Below, piece by piece: positions 34,051-64,000 of a DNA stretch of 64,000 nucleotides. The first letter of the stretch is position 1; each line of letters begins with the position of its first letter. The notes under the pieces are model-generated. The model searched no databases. It had not been told where the DNA came from and worked only from the letters and a program-made list of their open reading frames with translations. The translations under genes were made by a program, and so were the position numbers. The stretch is from Primula veris (taxonomy: Eukaryota > Streptophyta > Magnoliopsida > Ericales > Primulaceae), in NCBI GenBank assembly GCA_963682055.1, contig OY821745.1:12345501-12409500 (forward strand), written 5' to 3'.

Positions 34051-35298
34051 GAGGTTGAATTTTTATACTACACTTTTTCTGAAAAAACGCACAAACCGTA
34101 AAAAAAATCTACGGTCTACAGTGTTTTAATGCAAACCGTAAAAAAAATCTACGGTTTGCAAAAATACATGCAAACCGTAAAAAAAATCTACGGTTTGCAT
34201 GTATTTTTGCAAACCGTATATTTTTTTTACGGTTTGCATGCAATTTTTTTTTTTTTTTTTTGTAAAATAGTAAAAAATATATAAAATATGCAAATCCATA
34301 ATTCACTTAGGTATATATAATTGTTTGTTGTTTGTTTATATTAATTATAGAAATTATAATAATTGTTGATATTTGTCCCATTTTTGCATTATTTATTTTT
34401 TTGAAAATTTAAAATTTGAGTGAAAATAAGCAAATGAGCACGGAAGGAGATAAAAAATAGGGGTAGAAGATTTGTACCGCCACCCATACTGAAATATTGA
34501 AAACAAAATGAAAAAGTATAATGACTTAAAAAAAAATCATTAGAAAAATATAAAGCCAAATCCAAGAAAGTACTAGGAACCGAACATATAATATGCCTTC
34601 TAGATATCTATCGTTTTTCCACGTACACATAGTTTTCAATTTTATCCACTTTCAAACCCGAACGATATATTTTGTTGACATAAACTTTTAGAGAGACTCA
34701 ATATGAATTATCAGATCTTGTATATTAGAGTAAATAAATAATGCATATATTAAGTCTTTATGAAAATTTATATCAAAAATTATTTAATTACATCATCGAT
34801 CATGACAAAAAAATATTACAAATCTTAATACAATATTACTAGTCCATATCAATCTTAATACATCATCGATCATGACAAAAAAATATTTCTGTTATGCAGT
34901 AAGGTAATATTTTTTTCTTCCTTAAGATAAATTTCTTGATAAAAAAAGAGAGGATATATATAATGGTCTGTTGTATTTATTTATATTTGAATGAATAGAA
35001 GAGCATACTACAAATCAGTGGCTTATTTTTGTTGTTTATCATTTAATAATTGTTGATATTTGTCCCATTTAATAAAAAAATTAGGGTTTTTATTCAAATT
35101 TGGTTATTTAGATATTTAGTTATCATTATTTGGTTATTATTAATTGGTTATCATTGAGTTATCATTATTTAATTATCATTAATTGGTTATCATTGAGTTA
35201 TCATTGTTTGGTTATCATTAATTGGTTATCATTGTTTAATTAGATAATTAAAATAATTGTTTGGTTATCATTAAATGTGTATGTTTCTTATGTTGTTT
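34051..35298 (+). repeat. left terminal inverted repeat of MULE-1
   Basis: The outer 200 bp contain several palindromes of the form gcaaaccgta, spacer, tacggtttgc, possible transposase-binding sites. The inner part holds a simple array of ggttatcattaattgg units. It is mirrored at 38011-39260. Its short open frame is mirrored too and is not a gene. Confidence 0.9.
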
Positions 35299-35325
35299 TT
35301 ATTGTTAAAAATAAAAATAGTTAGG

Positions 35326-37568
35326 ATGGCAGAGCCAGGTCCACGGATTAGAGGCAGTTTAGGCATTTTACGACAGACCGGTCATATTTCAAATACGACT
35401 TGGGATGCTGGAAGAGAAGCGGGTAGAGGAGATGCCCATAAGATTAGGGTTTATAATTATAGTTGGCAGATACCGACGCCTAACAGGCTAGTTCAAAATA
35501 TGATTAGGGCTGGTTTTTACGGTATTCACACTATAGGTAATTATAGCGTAGACCGAGGCTTACTTACAACCTTAGTTGATAGGTGGCGTGATGAGACGCA
35601 CACATTCCATTATGTCGGTGGAGAGTTGAGGATATCTTTACAGGATGTAGAGATTATGTTTGGTCTCAGGGTGGATGGTCTTGCTGTTACCCGATCGGAG
35701 CGGAATGATAACAGAACGAGCAGGTTAGATATCAGTCTAGGGCTGCCATGTTATTATTACTGGGGGCACATGTGTTTTCAGATAAGAGCAGTGATCAGAT
35801 TCCACTCTGGCCTCTGCCATTTCTGGAGGATTTTGACACATGTGCTGAGTATAGTTGGGGATCAGCTCTTCTGGCCTGGTTAGAGGCTAATCTATGCAAG
35901 TTGGTACGTGGTAAGGCAAACGGAGTAAGCGGGGCGGTGATGTTTCTCGATATGTGGGCGATGACCAGACTACTGCCGGTTAGACCATGTGAAGAGCTGC
36001 CGGAAGATATCGAGCCACCTGAGGGCTGGCCTAGGTTCCCCCTCGGTTACAGGTATGATATTATTTAGTTTTTGTATTGAATTTGTGTTTTTTTTATTGT
36101 GTCATCTATCATTTACTTATCTTATTTATATTTATTGTTTATCGGGTTTTGTTTGTATATTACAGATGGAAGATTTGGAGGCAAACTAACTTTAAACCAT
36201 ATGTCTACGGACATAATGTGGTCCACATACGTGACCAGTTTGACAATATGTCGCATGAACAGGTAAAATTTTAACTTTCTTATTTCCTACATGCAACTTA
36301 CGTATTATATGTTGTATATGTTTCCATTGGTCTTATGTTCGCAGAATTTTATTACTAGTATTTTTAAACCCTTGTTTACATATTATAATAATAATTTTAC
36401 TGATTACAGATAGTGTGGCAACCTTACGGGAATCTCGATGACTATCCGGAATACTGCACGCGGGACCGTTATATGTGGCATTGTTCTGTGCCTCTCATTT
36501 GTAATGAGAAGATTGAGTTCCACCCCGCGGACAGGTTCATGAGACAGTTCGGTTTTGTTCAGCGGGTCCTTACATATATTTGGAAACCCAGACAGGGTCA
36601 CGGCAAGGATAGAAGATGTGGGATTGTGCAAAAACACGATTGGCCTTCACTTTTTGCAGAGTTTATAACCGTGTGGAATGACCGCCACAACCGGCTTGTT
36701 AACGGCGAATTTGGTACGGGAACGTCACCGGATTACATGAGATGGTATACAGAGAGGACCCGCATCTTTATAAACCCACCTGAACTTGCCCGGCCATCTC
36801 ACGGTTTCCGGGAGCATACGGGTGTGCTCAATAAAATGGTAACAACTAGTTAAAGTTCATTAATATTTGTGTGTTATTTTTTTGTTTGGTTATTTCAATA
36901 CTAATAAATCGTTTTTTATTGTTTTTTTTTTTCAGAAAGCGATGTTGCGCCGCAGTTTCAAATCGTTCAAACAGGCGAAAATGAAAACGGACGTGGACTT
37001 ACTACGTGTGGAGTTCCCTGAAATGGAAATGAATCCGTATGGGTCAGCTGATGAACAGTCGGATGAGGAGGATGACAATGACGACGACGACGACGACGAC
37101 GATGGTGATGACGACCTACGTTACGACCCAAGAACTTACACTAGGGCTTCAAGTTGTCGGCGTCCCGACGAAAGAGGTAGAGGGGAAGGCGAATCTAGTA
37201 GCGGCGGGCGTAGCAGGGGTAGAAGATCGAGTGGAGGTCGACCCCCGACTACAGATCAGGGTCCGGGTCCGAGTTCAAGCGGTCATGGTCGTCGTGCTTC
37301 TTTTGCTGGGCCGGACTACGTTCAGGATGATGTTCCGTTGGATCATCATAGACAATCATTTAGGTCGTACGACAGTTGGAGTCGAGGATTGACACTTACA
37401 TCCCACGAGCGTGCTCCGCATCCAGAATCGCAGCATCGACAGAGACGTCGTCCGGAGCTAAACGAAATCGAAGAGTCTACTGAGCCGTCATCGGATAGAT
37501 TAACATCGGCGGGAAAGATGCCCCCTACGTCCAACTTTAAAGGATTTACTCGTTACAAAAAAAAATAA
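35326..37568 (+). pseudogene. plant mobile domain (PMD, MAIN-like) protein gene with a disabling deletion
   Basis: Exons are inferred at 35326-36052, 36166-36262, 36410-36838 and 36936-37568, each bounded by GT and AG and phase-compatible. The protein begins MAEPGPRIRG. It has the PMD core (NYSVDRGLLTTLVDRWRDET, LQDVEIMFGLRVDG, CAEYSWGSALLAWLEANLCK), then VWQPYGNLDDYPEYC and a conserved WNDRHNRLV region. It ends in a low-complexity tail with a long Asp run, RG/SG repeats and a basic end. Compared with the copy at 62 kb, 133 bp are missing at about 35735, shifting the frame in exon 1; the downstream frame is otherwise open. PMD proteins (MAIN, MAIL1) act in silencing and meristem maintenance in Arabidopsis, and PMDs also occur in transposons. 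This one belongs to a transposon. Activity is doubtful unless the gap is bridged by unusual splicing. Confidence 0.8.
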
Positions 37569-38010
37569 ATGCACATTTGTGTTTTTTGTATTTGATTTCT
37601 ATGTTTGATTTGTAAGTTTTATTCTTACCTGAGTTGCAATATTATAAATTCGTAAGTTTAATTTGATTCGTATGTTTGATTTGTACGTTATAAATTCGTA
37701 AGTTTAATTTGATTCGTATGTTTGATTTGTATGTTTGTAAAAAATATTCTGTATTTTAATTGATATGACCAATATTGAGTTTTTACGAAATGCAGGGACT
37801 GATTTGCAATTTTCTAGTTATCATTGTTTGGTTATAATTGAGTTATAACCAAACAATGATAACTCAATTTTTTAATCATAACCAAACAATGATAACTCAA
37901 TTTTTTAATTATAACCAAACACATTTAATGATAACCAAACAATGATAACTCAATTTTTTTATAAAACGGATAAAATATCAACAACCCCAATTTTTATTGG
38001 TGATTTGGGC
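37569..38010 (+). other. 3' region of the PMD gene with a 46-bp duplication
   Basis: A 46-bp unit (ataaattcgtaagtttaatt and following) is present twice at 37644-37689 and 37690-37735. The rest is AT-rich and leads into the right terminal repeat. Confidence 0.7.
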
Positions 38011-39260
38011 AAACAACACATAAGAAACATACACATTTAATGATAACCAAACAATTATTTTAATTATCTAATTAAACAATGATAACCAATTAATGATAAC
38101 CAAACAATGATAACTCAATGATAACCAATTAATGATAATTAAATAATGATAACTCAATGATAACCAATTAATAATAACCAAATAATGATAACTAAATATC
38201 TAAATAACCAAATTTGAATAAAAACCCTAATTTTTTTATTAAATGGGACAAATATCAACAATTATTAAATGATAAACAACAAAAATAAGCCACTGATTTG
38301 TAGTATGCTCTTCTATTCATTCAAATATAAATAAATACAACAGACCATTATATATATCCTCTCTTTTTTTATCAAGAAATTTATCTTAAGGAAGAAAAAA
38401 ATATTACCTTACTGCAGAACAGAAATATTTTTTTGTCATGATCGATGATGTATTAAGATTGATATGGACTAGTAATATTGTATTAAGATTTGTAATATTT
38501 TTTTGTCATGATCGATGATGTAATTAAATAATTTTTGATATAAATTTTCATAAAGACTTAATATATGCATTATTTATTTACTCTAATATACAAGATCTGA
38601 TAATTCATATTGAGTCTCTCTAAAAGTTTATGTCAACAAAATATATCGTTCGGGTTTGAAAGTGGATAAAATTGAAAACTATGTGTACGTGGAAAAACGA
38701 TAGATATCTAGAAGGCATATTATATGTTCGGTTCCTAGTACTTTCTTGGATTTGGCTTTATATTTTTCTAATGATTTTCTTTTAAGTCATTATACTTTTT
38801 CATTTTGTTTTCAATATTTCAGTATGGGTGGCGGTACAAATCTTCTACCCCTATTTTTTATCTCCTTCCGTGCTCATTTGCTTATTTTCACTCAAATTTT
38901 AAATTTTCAAAAAAATAAATAATGCAAAAATGGGACAAATATCAACAATTATTATAATTTCTATAATTAATATAAACAAACAACAAACAATTATATATAC
39001 CTAAGTGAATTATGGATTTGCATATTTTATATATTTTTTACTATTTTACAAAAAAAAAAAAAAAAAATTACATGCAAACCGTAAAAAAAATATACGGTTT
39101 GCAAAAATACATGCAAACCGTAGATTTTTTTTACGGTTTGCATGTATTTTTGCAAACCGTAGATTTTTTTTACGGTTTGCATTAAAACACTGTAGACCGT
39201 AGATTTTTTTTACGGTTTGTGCGTTTTTTCAGAAAAAGTGTAGTATAAAAATCCAATCTC
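38011..39260 (-). repeat. right terminal inverted repeat of MULE-1
   Basis: It is the reverse complement of 34051-35298, extending inward to the atgtttcttatg block next to the PMD gene. A second small inverted match (acacatttaatgataacc) occurs just inside at about 37920. Confidence 0.9.
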
Positions 39261-58508: not shown

Positions 58509-59198
58509 TGGCGAGCCTACTTTTCTTACAAGGCTTGGCTTAATCAATTCGCGTCGGCTCCGATCTTCCGAGGTGTCCGTCATAGAATATATCTGCTTCG
58601 ACGAGGGGGTACTCTCCGTTCCTGCATAAGAAACAAACAGGGGCCCGGGGTTGGTACCAGATTTTCCCTCTCCGACGATCAAATTAGTACTGGGTAAGAC
58701 TGAAAGTAGGTTGATAACGAAAAGGGGGGGGGGGGGGGGGGGGGATCGGACCGGTTACAGCTGTGGCGTCGGGTGTCAGATGTCGTGTTTAGGGGGTCCG
58801 GGTGATTTGAGCTTTATCTCTCCTCTCTGTCTTTTTCTGTCCCCCACTAAGATGTGTTAGTGGGGGTATTTATAGTGTGATCAGAGGTATACTAACTGTA
58901 AAACGCTGATCCAACGGCGTTAGGTCATTTATGACTCTGACAAGAGTACTGTCCTTTCCCGGGGCCCACTGGAGATGGCATGTGATTGGGCCACGCCGAT
59001 GAAACACATGAAGGGTCCCCCAAGGGAACAGCGGCATTAATTGGGGAAGTGTACTCGACAAGCTTCTTTAGGCCGGCCTAGACACAGCTCGGCCCATCAA
59101 GATCCGGGGTGATGCGTCACTCATGGTTGACAGGCCCGGATCGCCTGCTGTGGAGATGGTATTGGCCCGGACGAGGGGGTGCCGACATCCCCTCGCCA
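58509..59198 (-). repeat. 5' LTR of the gypsy element
   Basis: The limits TGGCGAG and CTCGCCA match the other LTR. A minus-strand TATA box (ctataaata) lies at 58867-58875 and should drive the gag-pol transcript. A G-run of 21 lies at 58724-58744. Confidence 0.93.
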
Positions 59199-59203
59199 GT
59201 AGA

Positions 59204-60047
59204 CATAAAATCCACGAATCAATATAGTGCATGAAAAACTAATATAAAAAAGGACTCCGATTTTAAGTTTGTGTAGGGGCTATTAAATCATGGAAACGGC
59301 CCTGGTATATGATATCAGATGTTGCACTTTATTGGACTAATATGAAGAAATCCAGGAAACTGACGGACCAAAATCTATCAGAGAAGTCATTATGGCTATC
59401 AATATTTTTTAAAATCTTCAATCACATCTCTTGTCATGAGTGTATTTTACTGGTAATACCTCTGCTTTTGCTGTTACACATTTGAATGGTGTATAGATAT
59501 TCCCAATTAAAGATAGGGTGATCAACTTGCGATATGCTTTAGTGCCATGTGGTTTTTTGAATTTTCATTGCTTTTGGAATATTCCTTGTGAAAAAGGTTT
59601 AAAAAACATGTTTTGACTAAAGATCTTTGTGGGCTTTGTAAAACTAGATTTGTCTTTGTTTTTCTTGTTGGGGTGTTTCGTGTGTGGTGTCGCCCACTTG
59701 TATACCTAAGATTGCCTTAATTCAATTCTCAATTGAAACATGTCAAGTATAATGATATTCACGTTTAGATACAAATTCTAAAGACGAGTAGAGCTTTTCG
59801 AGCTAAAGAACAAATTATAAGAATACAAAAGCTAGTAAAAATGATAAAAACGCTTTTACTTAGTGGGGTCTTATTTGATGTCAACTTTGAATTTTTTGCT
59901 ATTGCATGTTAGTCTAGCACCCTAGCACTCGATCATACATTACTATTCGGTATCATTTTCATTATTTTAAAAGCCCAAAACAAGCTTGAAAATTTCAACT
60001 TTCTACTAAATCCAAGATTTTAAGCTTCATTTATATAGATTATCAAA
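59204..60047 (+). repeat. last part of R3, no gene
   Basis: aaagatagggtgatcaactt (about 59510), gcttttggaatattccttgt (59570) and gactaaagatctttgtgggc (59616) match R1 and R2 in the same order, continuing the copy cut by the gypsy insertion. Confidence 0.55.
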
Positions 60048-60362
60048 GAAGCTGGATTTTTCCACTACAAATAATCTGATTCCACGCACAAACTGTACTT
60101 TCAAACTACGAACCGTAGTCCGAGAGTACGATTTTTACCTCAATGTAAACCGTACTTTGAAAATACGGTTTACACTGAGGTAAAATTATCCCATTGTCCC
60201 TACGTAAAATTACACAGCAAAAGAAGAAAAAGTAGCAAAACAAAGAAACAAACAGAACAAAACAACGCATAAAACAAACAACTCAAATTCGTTCCTAATC
60301 AAACCATATACCCAAATTCGTATCTGATTAAACCACGATTCTTTCACATACCCTTCATCAAG

Positions 60363-61978
60363 GTAATTCATTATTTTCTATTTCATTAACTTTAATTTTG
60401 TAATTTATATATTAATAAAAATTATGTAAATTGAGATTTTGATATTTACATCTTTGGGTTTTTATGCCAATTTGTTTCCTTAAATGGTTATCACTAATTG
60501 TTTAGTTGCATAAATTGTAAAAAGTTAGGTTTTTTCATATTTTACATTTTTTTATACAAAATAGGGGTTTATATCAATTTGTTGATTTAAATGGTTATCA
60601 CTAATTGTTTATGCCAATTTGTTAATTTAAATGGCTATCACCAATTGTTTATATTACTAATATTGTTTGGATCATGATAAATTGTAAAAAAAAAAGTTAG
60701 GGTTTTTCATATTTTAACCTTTTTTTTAATATAAATTAGGGGTTTTATGCCAATTTGTTAATTTAAATGGTTATCATTAATTGTTTATATTACTAATATT
60801 GTTTGGATCATGATAAATTGTAAAAAAGTTAGGGTTTTTTATATTTTACATTTTTTTAATACAAATTAGGGGGTTTATACCAATTTGTTGATTTAAATGG
60901 TTATCACTAATTGTTTATGCCAATTTGTTAATTTAAATGGTTATCACCAATTGTTTATATTACTAATATTGTTTGGATCATGATAAATTGTAAAAAACGT
61001 TAGGGTTTTTCATATTTTACCCTTTTTTTATACAAATTAGGGGTTTTATGCCAGTTTGTTAATTTAAATGCTTATCATTAATTGTTTATATTACTAATAT
61101 TGTTTGGATCATGATAAATTATAAAAAAGTTACAGTTTTTCATATTTTACCTTTTTTTTATATACAAATTAGGGGTTTTATACCAATTTGTTGATTTAAA
61201 TGGTTATCACTAATTGTTTATGACAATTTGTTAATTTAAATGGTTATCACCAATTGTTTATATTACTAATATTGTTTGGATCATGATAAATTGTAAAAAA
61301 AAGTTAGGGTTTTTCATATTTTACCCTTTTTTATACAAATTAGGGGTTTTATGCCAGTTTGTTAATTTAAATGGTTATCATTAATTGTTTATATTACTAA
61401 TATTGTTTGGATCATGATAAATTATAAAAAGTTAGGGTTTTTCATATTTTACCCTTTTTTTATACAAATTTGTTGATTTAAGTGGTTATCACTAATTGTT
61501 TATGCCAATTTGTCAATTTAAATGGTTATCACCAATTGTTTATATTACTAATATTGTTTGGATCATGATAAATTGTAAAAAAAAAAGTTAGGGTTTTTCA
61601 TATTTTACCTTTTTTTTAATACAAATTAGGGGTTTTATGCCAATTTGTTAATTTAAATGGTTATCATTAATTGTTTATATTACTAATATTGTTTGAATCA
61701 TGATAAATTGTAAAAAAGTTAGGGTTTTTTTTTTTCTTCATATTTTACCTTTTTTTTATATACAAATTAGGGGTTTTATACCAATTTGTTGATTTAAATG
61801 ATTATCACTAATTATTTATGTTATTAATATTGTTTGGATCATGATAAATTGTAAAAAAGTTTGGTTTTTTCATATTTTACCATTTTTTTTAATAGAAATT
61901 AGGGGTTTTATGCCAATTTCGTTATTTAAATGATTATCACTAATTGTTTATGTCATTAATATCCATTTTTCCATATAG
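60363..61978 (+). other. probable 5' leader intron of the MULE-2 gene
   Basis: ttcatcaag followed by GTAATTC at 60363 is a good donor. tttttccatatAG ends at 61978, eight bases before the ATG at 61986. The 1616-bp intron is almost filled by a tandem array. The upstream 170 bp are A/C-rich and could be the leader exon. Confidence 0.45.
60480..61975 (+). repeat. higher-order tandem array, about 280-316 bp period
   Basis: Two related monomers alternate, one with a double ggttatcac block and one with a single ggttatcattaattg block. Each is followed by tttggatcatgataaattgt and agttagggtttttcatattt. The marker gattta(a)atggttatcac recurs at 60583, 60890, 61193, 61475 and 61791. The ggttatcattaattg core is shared with the inner array of the MULE-1 terminal repeats. 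Confidence 0.85.
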
Positions 61979-61985
61979 GTTTCAC

Positions 61986-63599
61986 ATGGGTGAGCCGGGT
62001 CCAATAATTAGAGATAGGACGGGGATCTTAAGCCAGACTGGTCATTGATCGGAAAAGATTTGGGCATCCAGGAGAGAGATAGGGAGAGGGGATGCGAACA
62101 CAGTAAGAACGTACAACTATAGATGGAACATAAATAGCCATCCTAGGATATTGGAGAATATGATTAGAGCCGGGTTCTATGGTATATACATTATAGATAA
62201 CTATAGTGTAGATCGAGCTTTGATTACCGCTTTAGCGGATAGGTGGCGTGATGAAACGCACACTTTTCATTTTTTTGGTGCCGAGTTAGGAATGTCTTTA
62301 CTGGATGTAGAGATTATAGTAGGATTGAGGGTGGATGGCTATGCGGTAATCCGGTCTGAGACGAATGAGAATAAAACTACCAGATTGGATTTGATGCAGA
62401 GGTTGTTGGGTAGAACACCCAATGAGGCTAATGTTGATCAAAATGCTTTAATCGTTAAACTTGGTTGGTTTACAGAGCATTTTGCGGAATTACCCCCCAA
62501 ACCTAATGAGGAAACATTGTTATATCATTCTAGGGTTGCCATGTTATTATTGCTCAGTGCACATATTTTTTCTGATAAGAGTTGTGATCAGGTTCCAATG
62601 TAACATTTACCATTTTTGGAGGATTTCGATAGATGTGCAGAATATAGTTGGGGATCAACTCTCCTAGCTTGTTTGGAAGCCAATTTGTGCAAGTTGGTTC
62701 GAGGTAAAGCTGATGGAATAAGTGGCACGGTGACGTTTCTTGACATGTGGGCGATCACTAGGATACGGGTTGTTAGACCGTGTCCATATTTGCCATGTCT
62801 ACCTGATGATTACGACGCTGAGGATGGATTTCCTATTCCTCCACTTGGCTATAGGTTTGATATTATTTTTCCTTCTGCAATTTTCCAAACGTTTCTAGAT
62901 GAATGGGGTTTAGTCGTTGAAGCTGAAACGATTGAGGAGTACAATTTTTACGTAGCTAATTTCATTTCTTTCTATAATTCGTATCCCGGTGTGGTTAAAT
63001 ATGTAACCAACTTATTAAATAAATATGTCAATAAGTTTGTTGCATGCTATACCAACCCTACAAGGCATCTAGGTAATAGAACTAGTAATCGGGATGAACA
63101 ACAACACTCGAAGCTAAAAAAAACTATATCCACCAATTCTGGCATTCTTGAAAACGTTTGGGTCGAAGTGCATACAATTCTTAGTAAACAGTTCGACGAT
63201 ATTAAAATGAATTTGGATAGATGCAAGTCCTATTTTCCAGATGCAGAACAGACACCTCTATTTTCCTATCTTAGATCCTATATTACACACCATGCCTTTA
63301 ATTTATTATTTGAAGAACATAAAAAATGTGTTGGGCAATGGGATGTGAATTGTTCTTGTGGTTTAAAATTGTCTCACGGGCTACCTTGTCACCATGTTAT
63401 GAGTGAGCATATTGCACTTAACAAGTATCTTTCACTAGAAGAGATTGATAAATTCTGGAAAAATTTAGATGTAATTGATGATAATGGGTCCATTGATGAT
63501 GTTGGTGGCGTTGAGGGTGATTTGTACGAATTTAAAAGTGTTTATTCTACCAAAACGTGCGTCGAAAAACGCCACAGTAAACACAACTGCGAGAAATAA
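61986..63599 (+). pseudogene. PMD fused to C-terminal MULE transposase with SWIM finger
   Basis: One frame of 538 codons starts MGEPGPIIRD. It is broken only by TGA at 62046-62048 and TAA at 62601-62603 (Trp in the MULE-1 copy). Residues up to about 290 are the PMD, including the MQRLLGRTP block that MULE-1 has lost. At the position of the MULE-1 intron-1 donor (AG/GT at 62854-62856) the frame instead reads through. It enters a MULE transposase C-terminal half: EEYNFYVANFISFYNSYPGV, FVACYTN, TSNRDEQQHSKLK (the likely catalytic Glu region) and the SWIM zinc finger CSCGLKLSHGLPCHHVM. The N-terminal transposase part with the two catalytic Asp residues is missing. It is probably an inactive chimera, unless the stops are individual to this copy. 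Confidence 0.8.
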
Positions 63600-63858
63600 C
63601 TTTACCCTCTAGAACATCCATGAATGAACCTGAGATAAGGCAGAGTAGGAGGAGACCTAGAAAAGGGGACATTTCCAGTGAGATAAGTCAGGCTGAAAGT
63701 ATGTAAATGAAGAACTTGCTAGTGGAGATAACGAAGGTAAAGGGGAAGAAGAGTTAGTTCAACCAACTAGGATGACACGTAGGACGATTAAAAACCCCAC
63801 TAACCCTATGAAACCCTTCGAGTACGGTGAGTAAATATGGTGCATGTTACATAACTAA
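63600..63858 (+). pseudogene. linker coding remnants between transposase and OTU domain
   Basis: Two frames carry typical charged linker sequence, MNEPEIRQSRRRPRKGDISS from 63621 and then EEELVQPTRMTRRTIKNP in another frame. A frameshift near 63700 and stops in both frames fit a decayed continuation of the upstream gene. Confidence 0.5.
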
Positions 63859-64000
63859 ATCGACACCGTAAACGATGTATGTGGGGATGGTCATTGTGGA
63901 TTCCGGGTCATTGCAAAGGCGATGGGAAAAGAAGATGGGGCTAATGATTGGTATGAAGTTAGATGTGATTTGATGCATTGGCTTCATGTAAGGAAAGAAA
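63859..64000 (+). CDS. OTU-type cysteine protease domain, N-terminal part (runs off the window)
   Basis: After a stop at 63856-63858 the frame reads IDTVNDVCGDGHCGFRVIAK and onward, open to the last base. The GDGxCGFR motif is the signature of OTU deubiquitinase-like domains. The Asp lies in GDG, and the catalytic Cys codon is 63895-63897. OTU domains occur at the C-terminus of some plant MULE transposase proteins, so I take this as the third module of the MULE-2 gene. The His part of the catalytic triad lies beyond the window. Confidence 0.75.
   Translation, partial: MDTVNDVCGDGHCGFRVIAKAMGKEDGANDWYEVRCDLMHWLHVRKE

Follow-up and report, generated by a model that had tools for sequence, protein, structure and literature searches.

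A decayed Mutator-like element in Primula veris and its family, in which a plant mobile domain gene is paired with an OTU-tailed transposase

The element at the end of the window

The stretch of DNA analysed here, called the window, comprises 64,000 nucleotides of the Primula veris genome (GenBank assembly GCA_963682055.1, contig OY821745.1), and its right end carries a broken copy of a Mutator-like element (MULE) in which parts of a plant mobile domain (PMD) gene, of a transposase with a SWIM-type finger and of an OTU protease domain follow one another. The features of this copy are listed below, where L034 is a close relative with both ends preserved, L011 belongs to an older subfamily, and L009 is the fetched continuation that covers the copy beyond position 64000.

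60039..60047, no strand: ATTATCAAA, the left copy of an expected 9-bp target duplication
60048..64000, + strand: decayed, internally deleted PMD/OTU MULE, recognisable past the window to ~64200 (L009:4200)
60048..60169, + strand: left terminal inverted repeat (TIR) with ACCGTA-type palindromes, matching the TIRs of L034
60510..61962, + strand: tandem array in the 5' leader
61986..62854, + strand: PMD gene exon 1, with ATG at 61986 and the splice donor GT at 62855
62860..62866, + strand: deletion junction, at or a few bases from ATATTAT, by comparison with L034 and L011
62867..63849, + strand: C-terminal half of a MULE transposase, with frame changes near 63581 and 63682
63850..64000, + strand: start of an OTU domain, DGHC with a catalytic-type Cys codon at 63895-63897

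The first-pass annotation of this DNA had placed a PMD, a C-terminal transposase half with a SWIM finger and an OTU start on one strand within 2 kb, and all of this was borne out. Two adjacent open stretches of the PMD exon (62049-62600 and 62604-62852) score 88.4 and 39.3 bits against a Pfam PMD cut-off of 34.9 bits. The segment 62928-63581 is 71% identical over 218 aa (E ~1e-101) to the transposase of L020, an intact relative described below, and a CxC...CxH SWIM-type motif can be read at 63351-63395, while Pfam calls neither the MULE DDE domain nor SWIM in this fragment. The residue that we take to be the third of the DDE motif is kept, and the first two are lost. The OTU region is matched at 63850-63996 (E 6e-14) and continues in L009 to ~64200, where it breaks off upstream of the conserved His; window part and continuation together are 49% identical to the L020 OTU over 117 aa (E 1e-29).

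The direct succession of PMD and transposase in this copy is secondary. The end of PMD exon 1 (GGCTATAG) is followed by the donor GT at 62855, by ATATTAT and then, within a few bases, by transposase sequence, as the comparison with L034 and L011 indicates. ATATTAT is common to PMD intron 1 and to the transposase, where the same transposase sequence follows it. A deletion of ~3.9 kb (on the scale of L020) between these short repeats, starting inside PMD intron 1, explains why the PMD and half of the transposase are apparently joined in one frame. The frame 62604-63599 was considered as a real PMD-transposase fusion, and this is ruled out, as the junction lies beyond the exon 1 splice donor, in intron 1. 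Because of the stops TGA 62046 and TAA 62601 in PMD exon 1 and of the two frame changes in the transposase, the copy is evidently dead, and with the loss of the first two DDE residues it could not make a working transposase even without the stops.

As to the ends of the element, the tip GAAGCTGGATTTTTCCACTACAAA at 60048 corresponds to the left tip GAGGCTGGATTTTTCCACTATAAA of L034, which itself lies beside a perfect 9-bp duplication, and because of this agreement the element in all likelihood begins at 60048. The adjoining left TIR is 88% identical to the left TIR of L034 over 132 nt and 75% identical to its inverted right TIR over 159 nt (E 1e-26). The interval 60001-80000 contains no match to a right TIR, and the only other occurrence in it of ATTATCAAA, near 79854, adjoins no TIR. 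The truncated OTU is followed by a repeat-rich stretch of ~2.4 kb (L009:4270-6680) with, as judged by eye, similar sequence at both edges, and this is possibly a further insertion that removed the right end.

The leader contains 11 GGTTATCA motifs in a single orientation, and possible splice sites, found by eye, flank its tandem array (donor AG/gtaatt at 60362/60363, acceptor after 61978). Seven TAGGGTTT units also lie in the leader repeats, at 60698-61720.

Intact relatives and the pairing of two genes

A protein search of the same genome (436.5 Mb) yielded at least 121 scored transposase matches among 1909 candidates, and a PMD search yielded at least 150 scored matches among 1170 candidates. 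Five copies of the main subfamily were fetched (L019, L020, L021, L036, L037). Three of them have TIRs and a perfect 9-bp target-site duplication (TSD): L020 (9014 bp, AACCAATAT), L036 (8691 bp, CTTTAATTA) and L037 (9293 bp, GTATCTTAA). Together with L034, L012 and a second element in the window (34051-39260), six relatives thus possess such a TSD, and the TIRs with 8-11 bp duplications by which a MULE is recognised are present in the family; of the copy at 60048, the left end alone was found.

Inside L020, L036 and L037, the order is leader array, PMD gene, an array of telomere-like AAACCCTA repeats, and one open reading frame (ORF) of 898-900 aa that encodes transposase, SWIM-type finger and OTU. 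The PMD gene, divided into four exons by GT-AG introns, encodes 683 aa in L020 and 666 aa in both L036 and L037, and it lies upstream of the transposase-OTU ORF on the same strand. The D, D, E and CxC..CxH motifs can be read in the L020 transposase; the ORF of L019 scores 98 bits for Pfam MULE (cut-off 27.6) and 31 bits for Transposase_mut (cut-off 21), and Pfam SWIM stays with 9.6 bits below its cut-off of 19.6. Both genes are open in two of the five fetched copies, L020 and L037. The transposase of L036 is interrupted by a single stop, the PMD is interrupted by stops in both L019 and L021, and L019 also lacks the usual transposase start codon. The AAACCCTA array comprises 24-41 copies between the two genes in all five (L020:4428-4813) and is absent from this interval in L011, L013 and L034.

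Judged from these sequences, the window copy is the dead remnant, shortened by an internal deletion, of a Mutator-like DNA transposon with many copies, some of them intact, in this genome. The idea of three modules in a single element therefore stands, and unbroken copies, which the first-pass annotation had asked for, exist in L020 and L037, each of which has TIRs with a perfect TSD and reads through without interruption in both the PMD gene and the transposase-OTU ORF. The modules are evidently not joined in one protein, however: in intact members the PMD is a gene of its own, and the OTU is the tail of the transposase. Two findings that the first-pass annotation had named as fatal to the single element did not appear, since the search revealed no right TIR ahead of the OTU, which the relatives carry inside their TIRs, and since all three modules lie within one TIR pair there, not in separate, unrelated genes.

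The pairing extends far beyond the fetched copies. Among the listed matches, 30 pairs of transposase and PMD lie within 15 kb of each other, the window copy included, all on the same strand with the PMD upstream and with a spacing of 4.0-5.5 kb (0.55 kb in the window copy); by chance, 0.17 pairs would be expected for a span of 8 kb. Twenty further PMD copies were drawn at random from the 116 that remained after leaving out the 30 paired matches and four fetched ones, and in each fetched 1 kb the transposase was found in the expected place and orientation (20/20), a sampling that ran one way, from PMD matches to the transposase. These data also bear on the suspicion that three unrelated elements merely came to lie side by side by nested insertion, for which the broken state of the window copy and its missing right end in the interval 60001-80000 might speak. 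The same order between TIRs with TSDs at L020, L036, L037 and L034 and the 20 of 20 sampled pairs refute this explanation, and we consider its remaining probability negligible.

In an older subfamily, whose transposases are 81-86% identical to the window copy, the picture is more varied. Of eight stretches chosen by their transposase, six showed no PMD match (L011-L015 and L017, some of which may be too short), and L016 and L018 contain an exon-4 piece of the PMD alone. Two further stretches were chosen by their PMD: L034 has every part in decayed form (TIRs, TSD, PMD, transposase and OTU), and L035 shows no transposase within the fetched stretch. In the main subfamily, the whole-element identity of 96-98% among L020, L036 and L037 (gaps excluded) makes the copies look young. 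Between L019 and L020, dS is 0.15 in PMD exon 1 and 0.04-0.10 in the transposase, a mismatch that may reflect an exchange of modules between sublineages.

Selection, fold and a possible role of the PMD protein

Between lineages, PMD exon 1 (284-286 codons) has a ratio of nonsynonymous to synonymous substitution rates (dN/dS) of 0.19-0.22, the transposase one of 0.26-0.32 and the OTU one of 0.28-0.43. In 60 bootstrap replicates, the second-highest value does not exceed 0.32, 0.45 and 0.58, respectively. Stop, gapped and frame-shifted codons were left out, and the PMD ratios are approximate, since PMD dS between lineages exceeds 1. Between the dead copies L009 and L034, the PMD ratio is 1.4, as expected after decay. 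The low values between lineages show that all modules have been under purifying selection and that PMD and OTU have therefore been retained as working genes of the element. MULEs frequently capture genes, and one could regard the PMD as a captured host gene, a Pack-MULE-style passenger of no use to the element, which would fit the broken PMD of several copies (L019, L021 and both elements in the window). A passenger would decay, however, and not maintain a dN/dS of ~0.2 across lineages with dS >1. The constant order and strand in every pair checked and the lack of an internal stop in 149 of the top 150 PMD exon-1 matches by score, a selection that favours intact copies, also oppose this view, which is rejected as largely refuted by the selection result and which we regard as very improbable.

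The tail of the transposase has an OTU fold with catalytic Cys and His. Pfam reported no OTU family at E <= 0.01, nor at E <= 10 for C-terminal pieces, and a single OTU sequence found no convincing OTU protein match. An OTU alignment weakly matched OTU proteins, from E 0.06 upwards, and among these matches stood an unrelated EspA row at 0.24. The PMD lies above its Pfam cut-off and is matched in 21 of 21 alignment rows at E <= 1. Its predicted structure matches the fold of VANC21, the closest solved fold. VANC21 is a transposon protein with a solved DNA complex (9lnj), whose studied effect is a loss of silent marks. The link to VANC21 rests on structure and on weak Pfam signals, namely DUF1985 in five of the 21 alignment rows at E <= 1 (best E 0.004) and DUF7745 in six.

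We therefore propose, with a probability of roughly 0.55, that the family consists of MULEs that encode a transposase-OTU protein and a PMD protein of the VANC21 fold that lifts host silencing. The transposase-OTU protein would move the element, and its OTU tail would remove ubiquitin from the transposase itself or, at the site of the element, from proteins of chromatin or of repair. The PMD protein would bind to motifs that recur in noncoding DNA of the element itself, with the GGTTATCA array before the PMD start codon as candidate target, and would thereby lift silencing in cis and on sister copies. Such arrays occur in eight of nine leaders; the motif was chosen post hoc, and its binding by the PMD protein is hypothetical. 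The anti-silencing role, which the first-pass annotation had only inferred, gains independent support because the PMD model matches the VANC21 fold, and although we still infer it, it now has a probable structural reason and a candidate DNA target.

Several observations weigh against this proposal. The match to VANC21 comes from a model of moderate confidence (mean predicted local distance difference test, pLDDT, 70.5), and the sequence identity is 14%. A sequence search of solved chains with the PMD profile gave no match at E <= 10, and the L020 protein scores 17.4 bits for DUF1985, short of the Pfam cut-off of 35.1 bits. GGTTATCA ranked third among the shared 8-mers, after CCAAACAA and poly-A, and L035 lacks it. 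L012 (TIRs, TSD, partial transposase-OTU) and L013 (TIRs, transposase-OTU) carry no PMD, so the PMD is not needed in every copy. Finally, MAIN and MAIL1 are likewise PMD proteins that act on transposon silencing (passages of PMC7156037 and PMC8616336), but they are encoded by host genes outside any element and promote silencing, which is the opposite sign (PMC7156037). A separate search of solved structures with the sequence of a Fagus PMD protein found no VANC.

Some of these facts would agree with a different role, in which the PMD protein serves transposition or element gene regulation, for example by binding DNA together with the transposase or by activating transcription in the manner of host PMD proteins, and the OTU stabilises the transposase by deubiquitination. 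According to a passage in PMC7156037, MAIN, MAIL1 and PP7L are needed to express genes that share a promoter motif, and excerpts of PMC2836005 propose a role in transposition or repair for OTU and Ulp1 domains of Ginger and other transposons. The PMD-less elements L012 and L013 would fit a protein that is able to act in trans. As the closest solved fold is specifically VANC21, known for the loss of silent marks, we hold this alternative to be rather unlikely, although a shared fold shows no function.

A further member of the family lies elsewhere in the window:

34051..39260, + strand: complete-ended, non-autonomous PMD-only MULE, perfect TSD ATCAAATAA on both sides
35326..37586, + strand: PMD gene of four exons, spliced at GT/AG sites, with a frame-breaking deletion in exon 1

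The TIRs of this element are ~1250 bp long and 99.4% identical, and no transposase match was found in it. Each end carries inward-facing GGTTATCA arrays, so that the right end resembles an inverted copy of the left leader. Apart from these elements, the window contains a run of 21 G at 58724-58744, in a GC-rich part shortly before the sequence turns AT-rich.

Related systems and implications

Among the closest known systems is VANDAL21/Hiun of Arabidopsis, which like the present family is a MULE with a transposase and an accessory gene, the PMD model matching the fold of its VANC21. In VANDAL elements, a short motif occurs in noncoding tandem repeats near the accessory gene, and the GGTTATCA arrays may be its counterpart here. 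The differences are that here Pfam recognises PMD instead of DUF1985, that the transposase carries an OTU, and that anti-silencing is hypothetical. In the KIU/Kaonashi elements, too, a VANC-type protein occurs together with a protease that acts on ubiquitin-like modifiers (passages of PMC13317346), but there the protease is an Ulp1, whereas here it is an OTU, fused to the transposase and not to the VANC-like protein; they were described as non-TIR MULEs, unlike the TIR element reported here.

PMD-bearing MULEs as such are known, either with a PMD ORF in the MULE, as here, or with PMD and MULE in one predicted protein. Sections of PMC6446971 list PMD and/or DUF domains for half of the VANDAL group and PMD ORFs in MULE groups 42 and 45-50. 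The PMD relatives with a named source are all from flowering plants, and six of 12 long PMD proteins from other plants, Vitis and Aristolochia among them, also carry a MULE domain. These six differ from the present system, as their transposases are only 21-26% identical over 98-279 aa and none has DGxC; in P0041 and P0044 the transposase precedes the PMD, and PF03108 is listed for two of the PMD-MULE proteins and not reported for the transposase here. OTU tails of MULE transposases are likewise not new: Camellia P0003, Fragaria P0004 and Puccinia P0006 have one (27-34% identity over 603-706 aa), Hydra MuDR-6_HM is named as a MULE with OTU in part of PMC6446971, and passages of PMC2836005 describe OTU tails in Ginger elements and OTU domains in Helitrons. 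Listed among the closest relatives are MULE proteins of Puccinia striiformis (P0002, P0006-P0009, P0011, P0013-P0015; 25-32% identity), several of which carry an OTU, and one may ask whether plant and fungus share an old lineage of such proteins or whether a transfer took place between them.

An excerpt of PMC8616336 states that the function of PMD is unknown, as is the mechanism by which its host members control transposon silencing, and suggests, beside an account of VANC21, that transposons may make PMD proteins that counter silencing. In the relevant parts of PMC8616336 and PMC6419827, the terms VANC21 and PMD both occur and no structural link is drawn between them. Literature searches returned nothing for plant mobile domain, OTU and MULE together, a scope that other wordings and much subscription literature fall outside, and nothing for the whole word VANC with plant mobile domain, a scope that excludes the spelling VANC21. 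What appears new here is an abundant MULE family that pairs a PMD gene with an OTU-tailed transposase, as a variant on the known PMD-MULE and MULE-OTU themes.

More tentatively, and as a possibility that we would not yet bet on, PMD and VANC might form one structural superfamily of DNA-binding proteins that shuttle between transposons and hosts, used for silencing in MAIN and MAIL1 and for unsilencing in MULEs. The present family would then pair a PMD with a transposase-borne deubiquitinase and mark its copies with GGTTATCA arrays, and this pairing might underlie its recent burst. If the PMD has the VANC21 fold, its likely biochemistry is sequence-specific DNA binding, a property open to direct experiment, and in this abundant MULE family, whose copies are nearly identical, the protein and a candidate target motif come together. 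It would be the second case, beside the VANC-Ulp1 elements, of a VANC-type protein that travels with a ubiquitin-family protease, and the family may thus be a good test case for the escape of transposons from control.
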